From Acidimicrobiaceae bacterium (GTDB lineage Bacteria > Actinomycetota > Acidimicrobiia > Acidimicrobiales > Bog-793): a stretch of DNA of 33,816 bases. Shown here one piece after another: positions 7,017-32,915 of the stretch (position 1 is the first letter of the stretch; every line of letters starts with the position of its first letter). Below the pieces are notes generated by a model. That model searched no databases, had not been told where the DNA came from, and saw only the letters and a program-made list of their open reading frames with translations. The stretch spans positions 1-33,816 of the forward strand of contig DAHWHN010000084.1 in assembly GCA_027335685.1 (NCBI GenBank), written 5' to 3'. The position numbers and the translations under genes were made by a program.

Positions 7017-7952
7017 CTACCGCGACGAGGCCGGCCCCGTACGCCCGCGGCCGGCGCGCTCCTGCAGGGCCCCGACCACGACGGCGGCGGGCGAGCGCGC
7101 CGCGTCGGGCGCGCCGGTGACGAGGACAAGGCCTCTCGTCCGGGCGAGCGTGACGAGCCGGTCGAGCTCGGCTCCGTGCGACCCGTGGAGCAGGGCCCGG
7201 TACGCGGCCGCGACCTCGCCGTCGGGCTCGACGACCTCGCCCATCGCGCGCGCGAGCGCACCGGGGGGGGCGAGGCTGGCGAGCCACTCGTCGAACGGCG
7301 CATCGTCGGCCCGGATCCCCGCCGGCCACCGGCGGTCGACGAGGACCCGCCAGGCCGATCCAGCCGGTGGGGCCGCACCGACGTCCCGCACGGTGGCGTC
7401 GAGCGGCCCGCCGGCCACCCGCGTGCCCCCGCCTGTCCCCGGCGAGACCGGCGCATCTCCGACCGACGCATCTCCGACCGGCGCATCTCGGCCTGGCGCT
7501 GCTCGCACGCGTCGGGCCGCCCCGTCCGGCCCCTCCCCGCCGCCCGAAGCCAGGGCATGGCCGCTCGCGCGGAGCCTCCGGATCTCCTCGAGGTGGAGCG
7601 GAGCGAGGCGGGCGAGGGCCTCGTGGCCGGCGGTCCCGAGCGTCACGCGGACGACCCGGTGGTCCTGGGCGTCGCTCTGACGAGCGACGAGGCCCGCCAC
7701 CTCCGCACGCTGGACCAGCTCGACGGCGCTGTGGTGCTTGAGCAGCAAGGTCTCGGCGATGTCGTTGATCGTCGGTCCGGACGCGCCGTCGTGCCCGCGG
7801 ACCACGAGCAGGAGCTGGTGCTGCGCGGGGGTCACGCCGGCCAAGCGCGCCCGGGTCTCGCTCCAGTGCAGGAAGCGCCGGAGCTCCGTGCGCAGCTCGA
7901 GGAGCTCGCGGAACTCCTCCTCGCCGAGATCTGCCGCGTCCGGTTCCGCCAT
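7017..7952 (-). CDS. MarR-family regulator fused to a DUF488 (YeaO-like) domain
   Basis: A 311-residue protein with two recognisable parts. Residues about 10-135 form a MarR winged helix: TPAQHQLLLVVRGH, then TINDIAETLLLKHHSAVELVQRAEVAGLV and the wing RQSDAQDHRVVRVTLG. Residues about 201-300 resemble DUF488 (VLVDRRWPAGIRADDAPFDEWLASLAPP). The usual C-terminal DUF488 'ARDEEHNNA' region is replaced here by APDAARSPAAVV, so its normal site may be altered. A 65-residue low-complexity linker with three 15-bp DNA repeats joins them. ATG 7952 follows a TAGCCT box by 7 bases. It is divergent from the hydrolase at 8007 with a palindrome between them. Cotranscription into the riboswitch/permease downstream is possible. 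Domain 1 is secure, domain 2 fairly so. Confidence 0.85.
   Translation of the reverse strand: MAEPDAADLGEEEFRELLELRTELRRFLHWSETRARLAGVTPAQHQLLLVVRGHDGASGPTINDIAETLLLKHHSAVELVQRAEVAGLVARQSDAQDHRVVRVTLGTAGHEALARLAPLHLEEIRRLRASGHALASGGGEGPDGAARRVRAAPGRDAPVGDASVGDAPVSPGTGGGTRVAGGPLDATVRDVGAAPPAGSAWRVLVDRRWPAGIRADDAPFDEWLASLAPPGALARAMGEVVEPDGEVAAAYRALLHGSHGAELDRLVTLARTRGLVLVTGAPDAARSPAAVVVGALQERAGRGRTGPASSR
7446..7490. repeat. Three tandem 15-bp repeats in the MarR-DUF488 linker
   Basis: GACCGGCGCATCTCC, GACCGACGCATCTCC and GACCGGCGCATCTCG lie head to tail, differing by one base each. On the minus strand they encode the 5-residue units of the GRDAPVGDASVGDAPV linker, so unit number can change without breaking the frame. 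Confidence 0.85.
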
Positions 7953-7959
7953 CGCCCCG

Positions 7960-7965
7960 AGGCTA
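7960..7965 (-). promoter_or_regulatory. -10 box TAGCCT of the MarR-DUF488 gene
   Basis: On the minus strand TAGCCT fits TANNNT and ends 7 bases before the ATG at 7952, so the mRNA is probably leaderless. The palindrome at 7977-8007 would lie over its -35 region. Confidence 0.5.
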
Positions 7966-7976
7966 GGCGACCCCGA

Positions 7977-8007
7977 CCCGTGCGATCCTGGGGCAGAATC
8001 GCACGGG
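7977..8007. promoter_or_regulatory. Perfect inverted repeat, candidate shared operator
   Basis: CCCGTGCGAT, 11 bases, ATCGCACGGG: both 10-base arms match perfectly, with 21 bp between arm centres, i.e. two helical turns. It fills most of the 54-bp gap between a MarR-type regulator and the divergent hydrolase, covers the regulator's -35 area and the hydrolase's CAGAAT -10-like box, and its last base is the G of the hydrolase GTG. MarR-family regulators classically bind such palindromes next to their own gene. The protein-DNA pairing is inferred. Confidence 0.65.
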
Positions 8008-14688: not shown

Positions 14689-14826
14689 CTGGACCCGTCC
14701 CGTCCCGTCCGCGCCACGTCCGGGCGAACGGCACGAACCTACCGGTTGCCCGGGCGGCCCCGGCCGAGGTGCCGCGCGCTGCCGCGAAGACCGGGGGCCG
14801 ACCAGGTCACGCCGGGCGCGGACCGT

Positions 14827-14832
14827 TACTAT
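14827..14832 (+). promoter_or_regulatory. -10 box TACTAT upstream of the LacI gene
   Basis: TACTAT fits TANNNT well and is AT-rich against a very GC-rich background. It lies in the 196-bp divergent gap shared with the acyl-CoA dehydrogenase. A transcription start near 14839 leaves a leader of about 35-45 bases before GTG 14873 or 14885. No clear LacI operator palindrome was found nearby. Confidence 0.5.
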
Positions 14833-14884
14833 CCCGGCCCGGAGATATGTCGCGTCGCCGATCGCCGAAGGGGTGGGTGAGGCC

Positions 14885-17461
14885 GTGGTCGCGCTCGGGC
14901 TGCGCCCGACGTTGCGGGATGTCGCGAAGCTCGCCGGGGTGCATCCGGCGACGGCGTCGCGCGCGCTCAACGCCGAGACGCGCGCCCTCGTCGCCGCCGA
15001 CACCGTGCGCCGGGTCGAGCAGGCAGCTGCCGCCCTCGACTACAGGCCGGACCGGCTCGCCCGCAGCCTGAAGACGGGGCACTCCACGACCGTCGGCGTC
15101 GTCGTCCCGGACCTCACGAACCCGCTGTTCCCGCCGATCGTGCGCGGCATCGAGGAGGGCATCGAGGCGCGCGGCTACGTCGCGCTCGTCGCGAACACCG
15201 ACAACGACGAGCAGCGCGAGCGCCGCGTCGTCGAGGAGATGCGAGACCGCGCCGTCGACGGCATCGTCTTCGCGACGGCGCGCCGGCACCATCCGCTCCT
15301 CGTCGAGTGCGCGAGCGCCGGCATGCCGCTCGTCTTAGTCAACCGGGTGAGCGACGAGGTCGACCTCGCGTCGGTGTCCGCGGACGACGAGGCGGGCGCA
15401 CGCCTCGCCGTCGAGCACCTCGTCGCGCTGGGCCACCGGCTCATCGGCCACGTGGCAGGACCCCAGCACCTCTCGACCGGGATCGCCCGCCTGCGCGGCT
15501 TCCGCTCGGCGCTCGCGGCGGCCGGGCTCGATCCCGGAGCCGCGCCGGTCGCGTCCAGCCGGTCCTACTCCCCGGTCGAAGGGGCGCGCTGTGCCGCCGA
15601 GCTCCTCGCCCGCGTGCCGCTGCCGACGGCGATCGTCGCGGCGAACGACATGCTCGCGGTCGGGGCGCTGCGCGCGCTGCGTGCCGCCGGGCTCCGGTGC
15701 CCGGGCGACGTGTCCGTCGTCGGCTTCAACGACGTGCCGTTCATGGACCTCCTCGACCCGCCGCTCACGACCGTGCGGCTCCCGCACTACGAGATCGGCC
15801 TCGCCGCCGCGGAGCTGATGCTCGCGCGTATCGACGATCCGGGTCGCCCCCCGGAGGCGGTCGAGCTGCCGGCCCGGCTCGTCGTGCGCTCGTCGTGCGG
15901 CGCACCGCGTTGCCGTAGCCTCGAGCGAGGCGCGCCACGGCATCCGTGGAGCCGGCAAGGCGAGGAGGTCGTGCCGATGTCGTCGAGCGCAGCGGATCTA
16001 CACGGCGAGGTGTTCGCTGCGATGGCCGACCGGGTGCCGACGCGTTGCTTCGTCGGCGGCCGGTGGCGGCCGTCGTCGGATCGCGCCGAGATGCCGGTGT
16101 CCGACCCGGCGACCGGCCGCGTCCTCGTCCAGGTCGCCGACGGCTCCGTCGAGGACGCGACGGCTGCCGTCGACGCCGCGTCGGACGCGCTGCCCGCCTG
16201 GTCGGCGACGCCGCCGCGCGAGCGGAGCGAGATCCTGCGCCGGGCCTTCGAGGCCATGGTCGCCCGCAAGGAGGAGCTGGCGCGCCTCGTCGTGCTCGAG
16301 AACGGCAAGGCGTTCCCCGACGCGCTCGGCGAGGTCACCTACGCGGCCGAGTTCTTCCGCTGGTTCGCCGAAGAGGCGGTCCGCAACGCCGGAGAGGTCG
16401 CCGTCGCCCCGTCGGGCGCGAACAAGATCCTCGTCCTGCGCCAGCCGATCGGCGTCGCGGCCCTCGTGACGCCGTGGAACTTCCCGGCCGCCATGCTCAC
16501 ACGCAAGATCGGGCCCGCCCTCGCGGCGGGCTGCAGCGTGGTCTGCAAGCCGGCGTCGGAGACGCCCCTCACGGCACTGGTGATAGCGGGGATCCTCGAG
16601 GAGGCGGGCGTGCCCGCCGGGGTCGTCAACGTCGTCCCCTCGAGCCGCTCCGGTCCCGTCGTCGCCCGGATGCTCGCCGACGAGCGGGTGCGCAAGCTGT
16701 CCTTCACCGGCTCCACCGAGGTCGGTCGCCTCCTGCTCGCCGCTGCGGCGGACCACGTCGTGAGCTGCTCGATGGAGCTCGGCGGCAACGCGCCGTTCGT
16801 CGTGTTCGACGACGCCGACCTCGACGCCGCCGTCGCCGGCGCGCTGGTCGCGAAGATGCGCAACGGCGGCGAGGCCTGCACGGCCGCGAACCGGTTCTAC
16901 GTCCAGGCCGGCGTGGCGCGCGAGTTCTCCGAGCGCCTGGCGCACGCGATGGCCGAGCTGCGGATGGGCCCGGGCCTGCAGGAGGGCGTCGGGCTCGGAC
17001 CCCTCGTCAACGAGCCGAGCCGGGTGAAGGTGGCCGAGCTCGTCGAGGGGGCGCTCGCGACCGGCGCGCGCGCCGTCGTGGGCGGGGCCGTGCCGGACGG
17101 GCCCGGCTGGTTCTACCCCGCGACGGTGCTCGCGGACGTCGACCCGTCGGCAGCGATCCTCTCGAGCGAGATCTTCGGCCCCGTCGCGCCCGTCGTCGCC
17201 TTCTCCTCCGAGGCCGAGGCGATCGAGATGGCCAACGCGAGCGAGTTCGGCCTCGTGTCGTACTGCTACACCGGCGACCTGGCCAGGGGCCTGCGGGTGG
17301 CCGAGGCGCTCGAGTGCGGCATGGTCGGGTTGAACCGCGGTCTCGTCTCGGACCCGGCTGCACCCTTCGGCGGGACCAAGCAGAGCGGCCTCGGCCGTGA
17401 GGGAGGCCACGAGGGCATGCTCGAGTACCTCGAGCAGAAGTACGTCGCCTGCAGCTGGTAG
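14885..17461 (+). CDS. LacI-family regulator in one reading frame with an aldehyde dehydrogenase (858-residue fusion ORF)
   Basis: The frame is open from the LacI start to the dehydrogenase stop; no stop codon separates them. Residues about 7-30 are a LacI helix-turn-helix (RPTLRDVAKLAGVHPATASR with the ALN hinge start), then a sugar-binding-protein-like effector domain (TVGVVVPDLTNPLFPPIVRG, AIVAANDMLAVGALRAL, VSVVGFNDVPFMDLLDPPLTTV) to about residue 337. A roughly 27-residue Arg-rich stretch (CGAPRCRSLERGAPRHPWSR and on) then leads into the dehydrogenase at residue 365. The stretch looks like translated intergenic DNA: it contains TAGCCT and a strong GAGGAGG before ATG 15977. A stop lost recently, a sequencing error, or a working fusion are all possible. 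Start GTG 14885 is uncertain; GTG 14873 is the alternative. Confidence 0.75.
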   Translation: MVALGLRPTLRDVAKLAGVHPATASRALNAETRALVAADTVRRVEQAAAALDYRPDRLARSLKTGHSTTVGVVVPDLTNPLFPPIVRGIEEGIEARGYVALVANTDNDEQRERRVVEEMRDRAVDGIVFATARRHHPLLVECASAGMPLVLVNRVSDEVDLASVSADDEAGARLAVEHLVALGHRLIGHVAGPQHLSTGIARLRGFRSALAAAGLDPGAAPVASSRSYSPVEGARCAAELLARVPLPTAIVAANDMLAVGALRALRAAGLRCPGDVSVVGFNDVPFMDLLDPPLTTVRLPHYEIGLAAAELMLARIDDPGRPPEAVELPARLVVRSSCGAPRCRSLERGAPRHPWSRQGEEVVPMSSSAADLHGEVFAAMADRVPTRCFVGGRWRPSSDRAEMPVSDPATGRVLVQVADGSVEDATAAVDAASDALPAWSATPPRERSEILRRAFEAMVARKEELARLVVLENGKAFPDALGEVTYAAEFFRWFAEEAVRNAGEVAVAPSGANKILVLRQPIGVAALVTPWNFPAAMLTRKIGPALAAGCSVVCKPASETPLTALVIAGILEEAGVPAGVVNVVPSSRSGPVVARMLADERVRKLSFTGSTEVGRLLLAAAADHVVSCSMELGGNAPFVVFDDADLDAAVAGALVAKMRNGGEACTAANRFYVQAGVAREFSERLAHAMAELRMGPGLQEGVGLGPLVNEPSRVKVAELVEGALATGARAVVGGAVPDGPGWFYPATVLADVDPSAAILSSEIFGPVAPVVAFSSEAEAIEMANASEFGLVSYCYTGDLARGLRVAEALECGMVGLNRGLVSDPAAPFGGTKQSGLGREGGHEGMLEYLEQKYVACSW
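15916..15921 (+). promoter_or_regulatory. Possible -10 box TAGCCT inside the LacI-dehydrogenase junction
   Basis: TAGCCT fits TANNNT and lies 55 bases before the dehydrogenase ATG at 15977. It would allow separate transcription of the enzyme. Its TAG is in another frame, so it does not stop LacI translation. Confidence 0.3.
15977..17461 (+). CDS. Aldehyde dehydrogenase, succinate-semialdehyde dehydrogenase type (own start inside the fusion ORF)
   Basis: NAD(P)-dependent oxidation of an aldehyde, best fit succinate semialdehyde to succinate. From ATG 15977 it has 494 residues, a normal length. It is preceded by GAGGAGG with 8-base spacing, one of the clearest ribosome binding sites here, so it is probably made as a free enzyme even though LacI runs into it. 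Visible motifs are FVGGRWRPSS at the N-terminus, VTPWNFPAAMLTRKIGPALA (catalytic Asn region), FTGSTEVGRLL (cofactor loop), Glu267 in MELGGNAPFVVFDDADLD, catalytic Cys301 in NGGEACTAANRF, and EIFGPVAPV and FGGTKQSGLGREGG at the C-terminus. The Cys context differs from the common GQ-x-C form but occurs in this group. Substrate is inferred. Confidence 0.85.
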   Translation: MSSSAADLHGEVFAAMADRVPTRCFVGGRWRPSSDRAEMPVSDPATGRVLVQVADGSVEDATAAVDAASDALPAWSATPPRERSEILRRAFEAMVARKEELARLVVLENGKAFPDALGEVTYAAEFFRWFAEEAVRNAGEVAVAPSGANKILVLRQPIGVAALVTPWNFPAAMLTRKIGPALAAGCSVVCKPASETPLTALVIAGILEEAGVPAGVVNVVPSSRSGPVVARMLADERVRKLSFTGSTEVGRLLLAAAADHVVSCSMELGGNAPFVVFDDADLDAAVAGALVAKMRNGGEACTAANRFYVQAGVAREFSERLAHAMAELRMGPGLQEGVGLGPLVNEPSRVKVAELVEGALATGARAVVGGAVPDGPGWFYPATVLADVDPSAAILSSEIFGPVAPVVAFSSEAEAIEMANASEFGLVSYCYTGDLARGLRVAEALECGMVGLNRGLVSDPAAPFGGTKQSGLGREGGHEGMLEYLEQKYVACSW

Positions 17462-31094: not shown

Positions 31095-31100
31095 TAGCGT
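31095..31100 (+). promoter_or_regulatory. -10 box TAGCGT of the YbjQ operon
   Basis: TAGCGT fits TANNNT; the ATG at 31123 follows after 22 bases with a GGAG 8 bases upstream, so this would be a short-leader transcript covering the three overlapping genes downstream. Confidence 0.45.
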
Positions 31101-31122
31101 GCGGACGAACGGAGCGACGGCT

Positions 31123-32100
31123 ATGACGACATGGGACGGTACGGGGCTCCCACCCGCGGCGCGGGCCAGGATCGACCGCGCGGCGACGTCCGGGGTCCGG
31201 TCGAGCCTGCTCCCGGTCTCCGGCCATGTCGGCATCGAGAGCTGCGGCTTCGACCCTGTCGGCGAGGTGATGGGCTGCATCGTCGAGTACATCGGCTTCC
31301 AGGGCTACGGAGGCTGCGGTTGGTACACGGGTGGCGGCTACGGCGGCGGTGGCGGCTACGGCGGTGGCGGCTACGGCGGCGGTGGTGCCTACGGCGGCGG
31401 CTATGCGTCGCCGCCGGTCGTGACGAGCGGGGGCAGCTCGTCGTCGAGCTGGGCGGGGTTCGCGCCATACGTGAGCGCGCTGTACCACGGTTGGGACACC
31501 GCCATCGACCGGATGCTCACAGAGGCGAGCGAGCTCGGCGCCGACGGTGTCGTCGGGGTGCGCCTGAGCGAGCAGCACCTCGGAGCGGGCAACCGCGAGT
31601 TCGTCGCGCTCGGCACGGCGGTGCGCTCGACGGGCCAGACGCACGCCGGGTGGCCGTTCTCGACGACGCTGCCCGGCCAGGACGTCGCCAAGCTCGTCCA
31701 CTCGGGGTGGATGCCGGCGTCCATCGCCGTCGGCATCTCGGTCGCGATCCGCCACGACGACTACGCGACGCGCGTCTCCCAGGGGGCGTGGGCACCCAAC
31801 ATGGAGGTGACGGGCTTCAGCGAGCTCGTGACCGCAGTGCGGGCCGACGCCCGGCGCCAGCTCGCGCAGCGCACGGCCCATGTCGGCGCCGACGGAGCGA
31901 TCCTCGACTCGCCGATCGCGCTCTCGGTCCACGAGCTCGAAGCCGGCGAGGGTCACCGTGACCACGTCGCCGAGTCGAGCGTGCTCGCGAGCACCGTGGT
32001 CCGCTTCCACCGCGCGGAGACCCTGCCGCCGGCACCTGTGATGGTCGTGCCGCTGACGGGCAACCGCAACTCGACGACACGACGGAGGGCACGGAGATGA
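31123..32100 (+). CDS. Protein with two YbjQ-like (heavy-metal-binding type) domains and a Gly/Tyr-rich insert
   Basis: 325 residues from ATG 31123. The first YbjQ-like unit starts near residue 28 (LLPVSGHVGIESCGFDPVGEVMGCIVEYIGFQ) and is split by a Gly/Tyr-rich run (about 61-94) before resuming at YVSALYHGWDTAIDRMLTEASELGADGVVGVRL...FVALGTAV. The second unit runs from about 180 (WPFSTTLPGQDVAKLVHSGWMPASIAVGIS) to about 310. The A-x-x-LGADG-V/I-VGVR signature is typical of YbjQ/UPF0145. That family forms oligomers and has been proposed to bind metals, but no role is proven; the short cysteine count here does not by itself support metal binding. It overlaps the next gene as ATGA. Confidence 0.82.
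   Translation: MTTWDGTGLPPAARARIDRAATSGVRSSLLPVSGHVGIESCGFDPVGEVMGCIVEYIGFQGYGGCGWYTGGGYGGGGGYGGGGYGGGGAYGGGYASPPVVTSGGSSSSSWAGFAPYVSALYHGWDTAIDRMLTEASELGADGVVGVRLSEQHLGAGNREFVALGTAVRSTGQTHAGWPFSTTLPGQDVAKLVHSGWMPASIAVGISVAIRHDDYATRVSQGAWAPNMEVTGFSELVTAVRADARRQLAQRTAHVGADGAILDSPIALSVHELEAGEGHRDHVAESSVLASTVVRFHRAETLPPAPVMVVPLTGNRNSTTRRRARR
31303..31404. repeat. Gly/Tyr-rich coding repeat (GGCTACGGCGGCGGT-like units)
   Basis: Degenerate repeats of ggcggctacggcggcggt-like sequence encode GYGGCGWYTGGGYGGGGGYG and on, residues about 61-94 of the first YbjQ protein. The DNA can change length in multiples of three. It is protein coding and not a CRISPR or intergenic repeat. Confidence 0.85.
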
Positions 32101-32915
32101 CCGATGAGCAGCAGGTGGCCCTCGGGATACCCGAGGACGCGATGCGCCGCCTCGCCGAGATGCGGCCCGGATCGCCGAAAGCGCTGTTCACGTCCGACCT
32201 CAGCGTCAACGAGTTCCTGCTCGTGCGGGAGGCGGGCTTCCGCCCGCTCGGGCTCGTGCTCGGCTCGAGCATCTACCACGTCGGCCTCCAGGTCGGCCGT
32301 TGGAGCCAGAACATGGAGCTCGACAAGCTCTCCGAGGCGATGTATCACGCCCGTGACCTCGCGATGACCCGGATGGAGGCCGAGGCCGACGCCCTCGGCG
32401 CGGACGGCATCGTCGGGGTCCGCCTCGAGATCGAGTTCAAGGAGTTCGGCAACGACCTCGCCGAGTTCGTCGCGGTCGGGACGGCGGTGAAGGCCGACGC
32501 TGCCGGCTCCTGGCGCAACGACGAGGGAAAGCCCTTCACCTCCGACCTGTCCGGCCAGGACTTCTGGACCCTCATCCAGGCCGGCTACGCGCCGCTCGGC
32601 ATGGTGATGGGCAGCTGCGTCTACCACATCGCCCACCAGCGTGGCTTCTCCGCGCTCTCGAACGTCGGTCGCAACGTCGAGATCCCGCAGTTCACCGAAG
32701 CGCTCTACGACGCGCGCGAGCTCGCGATGTCGCGCATGCAGGCCGAGGCCGAGGAGCTCCACGCCGAGGGGATCGTCGGGGTGCAGCTGCTCTCGCTCGC
32801 GCACCGCTGGGGTGGGCACACGACCGAGTTCTTCGCCATCGGCACGGCCGTGCGCCCGCTGCGCGCGGACCACACGATCGCAGCACCGCAGCTCGTGCTG
32901 CCGCTCACCGATTGA
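32097..32915 (+). CDS. Second protein with two YbjQ-like domains
   Basis: 272 residues from ATG 32097, overlapping the upstream stop (ATGA), with GGAG directly before it. Two clear tandem units: the first starts near residue 29 (ALFTSDLSVNEFLLVREAGF), continues with LGLVLGSSIYHVGLQ, MEAEADALGADGIVGVRLEIEF and ends FVAVGTAVKA; the second starts near 145 (KPFTSDLSGQDFWTLIQAGYAPLGMVMGSCVYHI), continues MQAEAEELHAEGIVGVQLLSL and ends FFAIGTAVRPL. The two units are closely similar, pointing to internal duplication, and both keep the S-x-YHV/I motif that the first operon protein lacks. Function unknown; the overlap with both neighbours says the three products are made together. Confidence 0.87.
   Translation: MTDEQQVALGIPEDAMRRLAEMRPGSPKALFTSDLSVNEFLLVREAGFRPLGLVLGSSIYHVGLQVGRWSQNMELDKLSEAMYHARDLAMTRMEAEADALGADGIVGVRLEIEFKEFGNDLAEFVAVGTAVKADAAGSWRNDEGKPFTSDLSGQDFWTLIQAGYAPLGMVMGSCVYHIAHQRGFSALSNVGRNVEIPQFTEALYDARELAMSRMQAEAEELHAEGIVGVQLLSLAHRWGGHTTEFFAIGTAVRPLRADHTIAAPQLVLPLTD

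Follow-up and report, generated by a model that had tools for sequence, protein, structure and literature searches.

A LacI-family repressor and an aldehyde dehydrogenase (ALDH) appear to be encoded by one genuine lacI-aldh gene in a genus of uncultured actinobacteria-like bacteria. The gene seems to be fixed in the genus, to have arisen when an operon lost its interior, and to be expected to yield two products with a working LacI part and a working ALDH part; we put the probability of this reading at roughly 0.7. Comparison of genome sequences provides the frame and shows it to be conserved, with both halves under selection, an internal ribosome site present and an operon as its origin.

An uninterrupted frame for LacI and aldehyde dehydrogenase

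The DNA analysed (hereafter referred to as the window) is the whole of contig C153, 33,816 bases, from a draft genome of 2.39 Mb that is 82% complete. Translation of its forward strand from GTG 14885 to TAG 17461 gave an 858-residue protein (89.7 kDa) with a terminal stop only. In this one protein, a complete LacI repressor is connected through a 22-residue linker to an ALDH that is likewise complete and resembles succinate-semialdehyde dehydrogenases (Table 1). The continuous LacI-dehydrogenase frame of 858 residues, which had been proposed from the sequence-only reading, was thus borne out by the translation and by Pfam domains. The LacI helix-turn-helix (HTH) domain PF00356 was matched at residues 9–56 (45.3 bits against a cut-off of 27), the LacI-type effector domain at residues 68–338 (PF00532 and PF13377, E-values of 4e-36 and 4e-41), and the Aldedh domain PF00171 at residues 394–854, where the match extended over positions 1–461 of the 461-position profile (E-value of 1e-156). 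The whole protein departs from the two-domain layout of LacI/GalR proteins, a 494-residue ALDH following in frame after the effector domain. By this domain content, the LacI half belongs to the LacI/GalR family, of which the protein as a whole is no standard member.

Table 1. Features of the fused gene and its surroundings, in window coordinates
Feature	Position	Strand	Remarks
GTTACTATC, candidate -10 promoter element (TACTAT, 14827-14832)	14825..14833	+	about 50 bases before GTG
LacI repressor part, residues 1-342, GTG start	14885..15910	+	Pfam PF00356, PF00532, PF13377
HTH and hinge of LacI part	14909-15052	+	
Effector domain of LacI part	15086-15898	+	
Linker, 22 codons, residues 343-364	15911..15976	+	bounded by ends of separate orthologues
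Out-of-frame TAG	15916..15918	+	TAT in G001 and G002
GAGGAGG Shine-Dalgarno sequence of ALDH	15962..15968	+	8 bases before ATG
ALDH part, 494 aa, 51.2 kDa if begun at ATG 15977	15977..17461	+	PF00171

In the ALDH half, the catalytic residues Asn532, Lys555, Glu631 and Cys665 (fusion numbering) lie in standard motifs and are invariant in the three species of the genus. This half is nearest to succinate-semialdehyde dehydrogenases (SSADHs), its best solved relative being 3jz4; against the curated SSADH model TIGR01780 it scored 549.6 bits, under the cut-off of 646.35. An AlphaFold model built from three sequences was uninformative (mean pLDDT 41), a deeper alignment having been left out of the modelling because its LacI-only rows fell on ALDH columns.

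A frame of this kind might be produced by a one-base sequencing or assembly mistake that conceals the LacI stop at 15916, where a TAG indeed lies out of frame, as the sequence-only reading had pointed out. However, both other species of the genus (G001 and G002) have a single open frame across the two halves, with protein identities of 79% and 78%, respectively, and neither carries that TAG. Because the two congeners share the open frame, we rejected the mistake that had been suspected near 15905–15916; it is refuted for the genus, and we give it almost no weight. Judged by its congeners, the open frame is genuine. The linkers of the window and G001 differ at 22 of 66 bases, that of G002 has one in-frame 3-base gap, and the out-of-frame stops in G001 and G002 occur only past the ATG of the enzyme. 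As the LacI stop is missing in all three species, any ribosome that reaches the end of LacI has to read on into the enzyme, which agrees with the earlier expectation. The three species count as one fixation event, not three, and all of their genomes are drafts. A random 22-codon stretch at 74% GC is open in 72% of cases (P about 0.72), so that the openness of the linker is unremarkable and by itself no sign of selection.

The junction had originally been described as about 27 residues long with a strong ribosome site. Its GAGGAGG and the ATG at 8 bases stood, whereas its length was revised to 22 residues by the ends of the orthologues. The linker starts with TGC after PPR or APR; this codon is one base from TGA, the stop of most orthologues, in which it is found at slightly different places. 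The likeness of TGC to TGA hints at a lost LacI stop.

Separate genes in relatives and the birth of the fusion

Within the family, and likewise in a second family of this order, the same LacI and ALDH are separate genes of one cluster. The two genes are 9.5–11.9 kb apart on the same strand in G012, G227, G203 and G320, and the order of the cluster is LacI, hydrolase, dehydrogenase, ABC transporter, M24 protein, E1 alpha/beta and ALDH. The first gene inside the cluster, which runs on the opposite strand, encodes an FrsA-like hydrolase; some genomes have another, unassigned gene there. It is followed by the gene of a beta-hydroxyacid dehydrogenase and by those of a branched-chain-type ABC transporter, which has a substrate-binding protein, two permeases and two ATPases. 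The M24 protein and the E1 alpha and beta subunits end the interior, an M24 gene being missing from this place in G012, and several family members have an aldo/keto reductase gene 3′ of ALDH. Loci with the LacI-linked operon are L072 (G012:C7), L197 (G227:C29), L198 (G203:C26), L201 (G320:C6), L077, L080 and L081. We know of no LacI-linked catabolic operon of such make-up in the literature. Much the same set of LacI, ABC transporter, M24, E1 and SSADH is carried as separate genes by a plasmid of Streptomyces sp. YIM 121038. The separate cluster of related Actinomycetota links the same regulator and enzyme families as the fusion, but with other cluster genes intervening between them. At the L084 locus of another family member (G003:C5:1-5965), LacI and the operon are missing and a divergent acyl-CoA dehydrogenase gene stands directly before ALDH; by its gene content, this is a second kind of breakdown of that cluster.

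TGCAATCGATTG-like palindromes, which have the usual form of a LacI operator, lay upstream of this operon in all four relatives' genomes that were scanned, and so did the operator-like TGCAATCGNTTG. A TGCAATCGATTGCA-like operator accompanies the conserved LacI-linked operon of relatives. Since operator-like palindromes occur at the operon, the ancestral LacI presumably controlled it.

The window and G012 have outer neighbours in common, namely malE before LacI and MarR-M20-GlmU after ALDH. These neighbours are kept in the window and G001, where all the genes between LacI and ALDH are gone, together with the aldo/keto reductase gene; the G002 contig starts only a little 5′ of LacI. Neither the substrate-binding protein nor the M24 protein was found in any of the three genomes of the genus, absence from drafts not being absolute. 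The simplest history appears to be that the operon interior was lost and that the LacI stop was lost then or concurrently. In the ancestor, LacI and ALDH would have been the separate ends of a single catabolic operon, presumably repressed by LacI via TGCAATCGATTGCA-like operators. A loss of about 10–12 kb in the ancestor of the genus would have brought the 3′ end of LacI to the ribosome site of ALDH, and loss of the LacI stop would have placed LacI and ALDH in a shared frame.

The ribosome site itself is informative about this history. The separate ALDH genes of G012 and G021 are preceded by GAGGAGG with a spacing identical to that in the fusion; in G012, the E1 beta stop and the ALDH ATG overlap (ATGA), and GAGGAGG with the 8-base spacing is present. 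Because this sequence and its spacing already stand before separate ALDH genes, the internal ribosome site predates the fusion. A relic of the E1 beta peptide in the linker was also considered, but it lacked significance (P about 0.3 or worse). Only the DNA around the ribosome site resembles the ancestral E1-ALDH junction (P of 0.001–0.04 for the window sequence).

Selection on the two halves and expected products

We estimated dN/dS by Nei-Gojobori counts, the high dS making the ratios rough. The HTH had a ratio of about 0.09 (0.04 between G001 and G002) and was the most constrained segment, while the ratio was near 0.2 for the LacI core and likewise for ALDH. In the linker, dN exceeded dS, and amino-acid identity was 36–38%. 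The 15-base block that holds GAGGAGG was 93% identical to G001, as compared with 59% for the remaining linker. By these measures, purifying selection acts on both halves, most strongly on the DNA-binding domain, but not on the linker; apart from the ribosome-site block, the linker is retained only as an open joint. The recognition helix, VHPATASRALN, is the same as in operon-linked LacI orthologues and in most of the separate orthologues.

The GTG start of LacI is conserved in all three species, and upstream of it the candidate promoter element GTTACTATC is identical in the three, inside an otherwise poorly conserved region. The internal ALDH ribosome-binding site, which had been recognised in the window alone, proved to be conserved in the genus; its ATG (15977–15979) is codon 365 of the fused frame. 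Two products, the fusion and the free enzyme, are probably made. The first would be the LacI-ALDH protein of 858 residues and ~90 kDa, started at GTG 14885, and the second a free ALDH of 494 residues and ~51 kDa, started at 15977, the internal site inherited from the ancestor. The LacI half would be bound to DNA as a dimer, the simplest site being its own promoter, and would be released upon effector binding; the ALDH half would be an active, oligomeric enzyme, and its oligomer interface could let free ALDH subunits assemble with the fusion. Expression of both products, autoregulation and mixed oligomers are inferred, as would be a working repressor half and any communication between enzyme and repressor.

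As the HTH is under the strongest constraint, the LacI half presumably binds DNA, for which its own promoter is the simplest candidate. An ancestral-type operator was not found near the fusion gene or its promoter, and operator sites with two mismatches were no commoner than control across the three genomes of the genus. The missing operator, like the missing target operon genes, would be expected if the LacI half were a decaying leftover, useless with the operon gone, and ALDH alone mattered. Yet the most constrained segment is the HTH, the recognition helix is unchanged, and the frame is undamaged in three species; decay of the LacI half is therefore a decidedly doubtful proposition.

A real fused gene is also compatible with a neutral joining, which is a reading of the purpose of the fusion: two genes would have become fused with each half doing its own job, DNA binding and catalysis being unlinked. 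The fusion would be tolerated and the enzyme made mostly from the internal start, consistent with the ancestral ribosome site that ALDH keeps. The unconserved linker, with dN above dS, fits this reading, and at such GC 22 linker codons would be expected to stay open by chance. Against it, a LacI stop has not re-arisen in any of the three species despite the change of a third of the linker bases (window versus G001), but this counterpoint is weak, because chance alone would often keep the linker open. We consider that a neutral joining has somewhat less than an even chance of being correct.

Alternatively, the occupancy of ALDH by its substrate or NAD(P) might alter the DNA binding of LacI, making the protein a strict trigger enzyme, by analogy with PutA, in which redox state has this effect. 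In favour of this, both halves are intact and selected, and the ancestral regulator and enzyme belong to one pathway. The unconserved linker speaks against a tuned interface, and the structure prediction was uninformative; we regard a strict trigger enzyme as unlikely. It is similarly improbable that the protein is a LacI-based trigger enzyme that would repress its own gene and oxidise an aldehyde of the same pathway, its hold on DNA being set by the substrate or NAD(P) state of ALDH and by dilution with free ALDH from the internal start.

Rarity of the fusion and its likeness to known proteins

Among the genomes compared, the fusion is confined to the one genus. Other LacI-ALDH fusions were found neither in 35 genomes of the family (32 of them outside the genus) nor in samples of the order (397 genomes), the class (395 genomes, with the LacI half as query) and the phylum (397 genomes), nor among the 80 best GTDB contigs. 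These genome searches were keyed to the present LacI and ALDH and would miss fusions from unrelated subfamilies. In three plasmid records, most of the query matched at a single place; the one examined, from Paenibacillus, contained separate genes. No LacI-ALDH fusion was found in the literature searched. The impression from the sequence-only reading that a LacI fusion of this kind was unfamiliar held in the sampled genomes and the searched literature alike. In a more distant bacterium, related ALDH and LacI genes are adjacent in that order and unfused (L132; JAHEJW010000016.1, 2989-5566), and on a GTDB contig (L139) ALDH and LacI are convergent.

Trifunctional PutA combines, in one polypeptide, a ribbon-helix-helix DNA-binding domain, a proline dehydrogenase and an ALDH-superfamily domain. 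The present protein resembles it in that DNA-binding and enzyme domains are joined, with the ALDH superfamily represented among the latter. Pfam detected in the fusion neither a ribbon-helix-helix domain (the LacI HTH alone was found) nor a proline dehydrogenase. Unlike PutA, the fusion contains all of LacI, including the effector domain that belongs to it, and an internal start at which free enzyme can be made. PutA acts as a repressor of its own pathway genes and as a dehydrogenase (PMC6978683). The fusion is not a PutA member and, by analogy, may work like PutA. MocR proteins (GntR-aminotransferase) also have a DNA-binding domain joined to an enzyme-fold domain (PMC5320631). In MocR, the enzyme-like domain is the sensor, whereas in the fusion LacI keeps its own sensor and ALDH keeps its catalytic residues. 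Repressor-enzyme proteins are known already, as exemplified by PutA, and none built on LacI was found.

The LacI family has a rigid structure of two characteristic domains, as described in a study of 1,281 LacI regulons (PMC4052901). The fusion is like LacI/GalR repressors in its complete HTH, hinge and periplasmic-binding-protein-like domain and in having the recognition helix of separate orthologues; it differs from these two-domain proteins in the whole enzyme that follows the effector domain. Here, a LacI protein of this rigidly built family has gained a whole enzyme and kept it through species divergence. The series from complete operon through broken operon to fused remnant offers a concrete route by which the regulator of an operon could turn into a regulator-enzyme protein. 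This route, consisting of the loss of an operon interior and of a stop, would be a testable case for how PutA-like proteins may begin.

Elsewhere in the window, a reverse-strand gene (7017–7994) has a MarR domain (residues 53–113) and an inactive-clade DUF488 domain (residues 207–318) in one frame, with a 59% identical match in G001. Two overlapping forward-strand genes (31099–32100 and 32097–32915) encode YbjQ_1 (putative heavy-metal-binding) domains, the first having a glycine/tyrosine-rich segment and the second two YbjQ_1 stretches.
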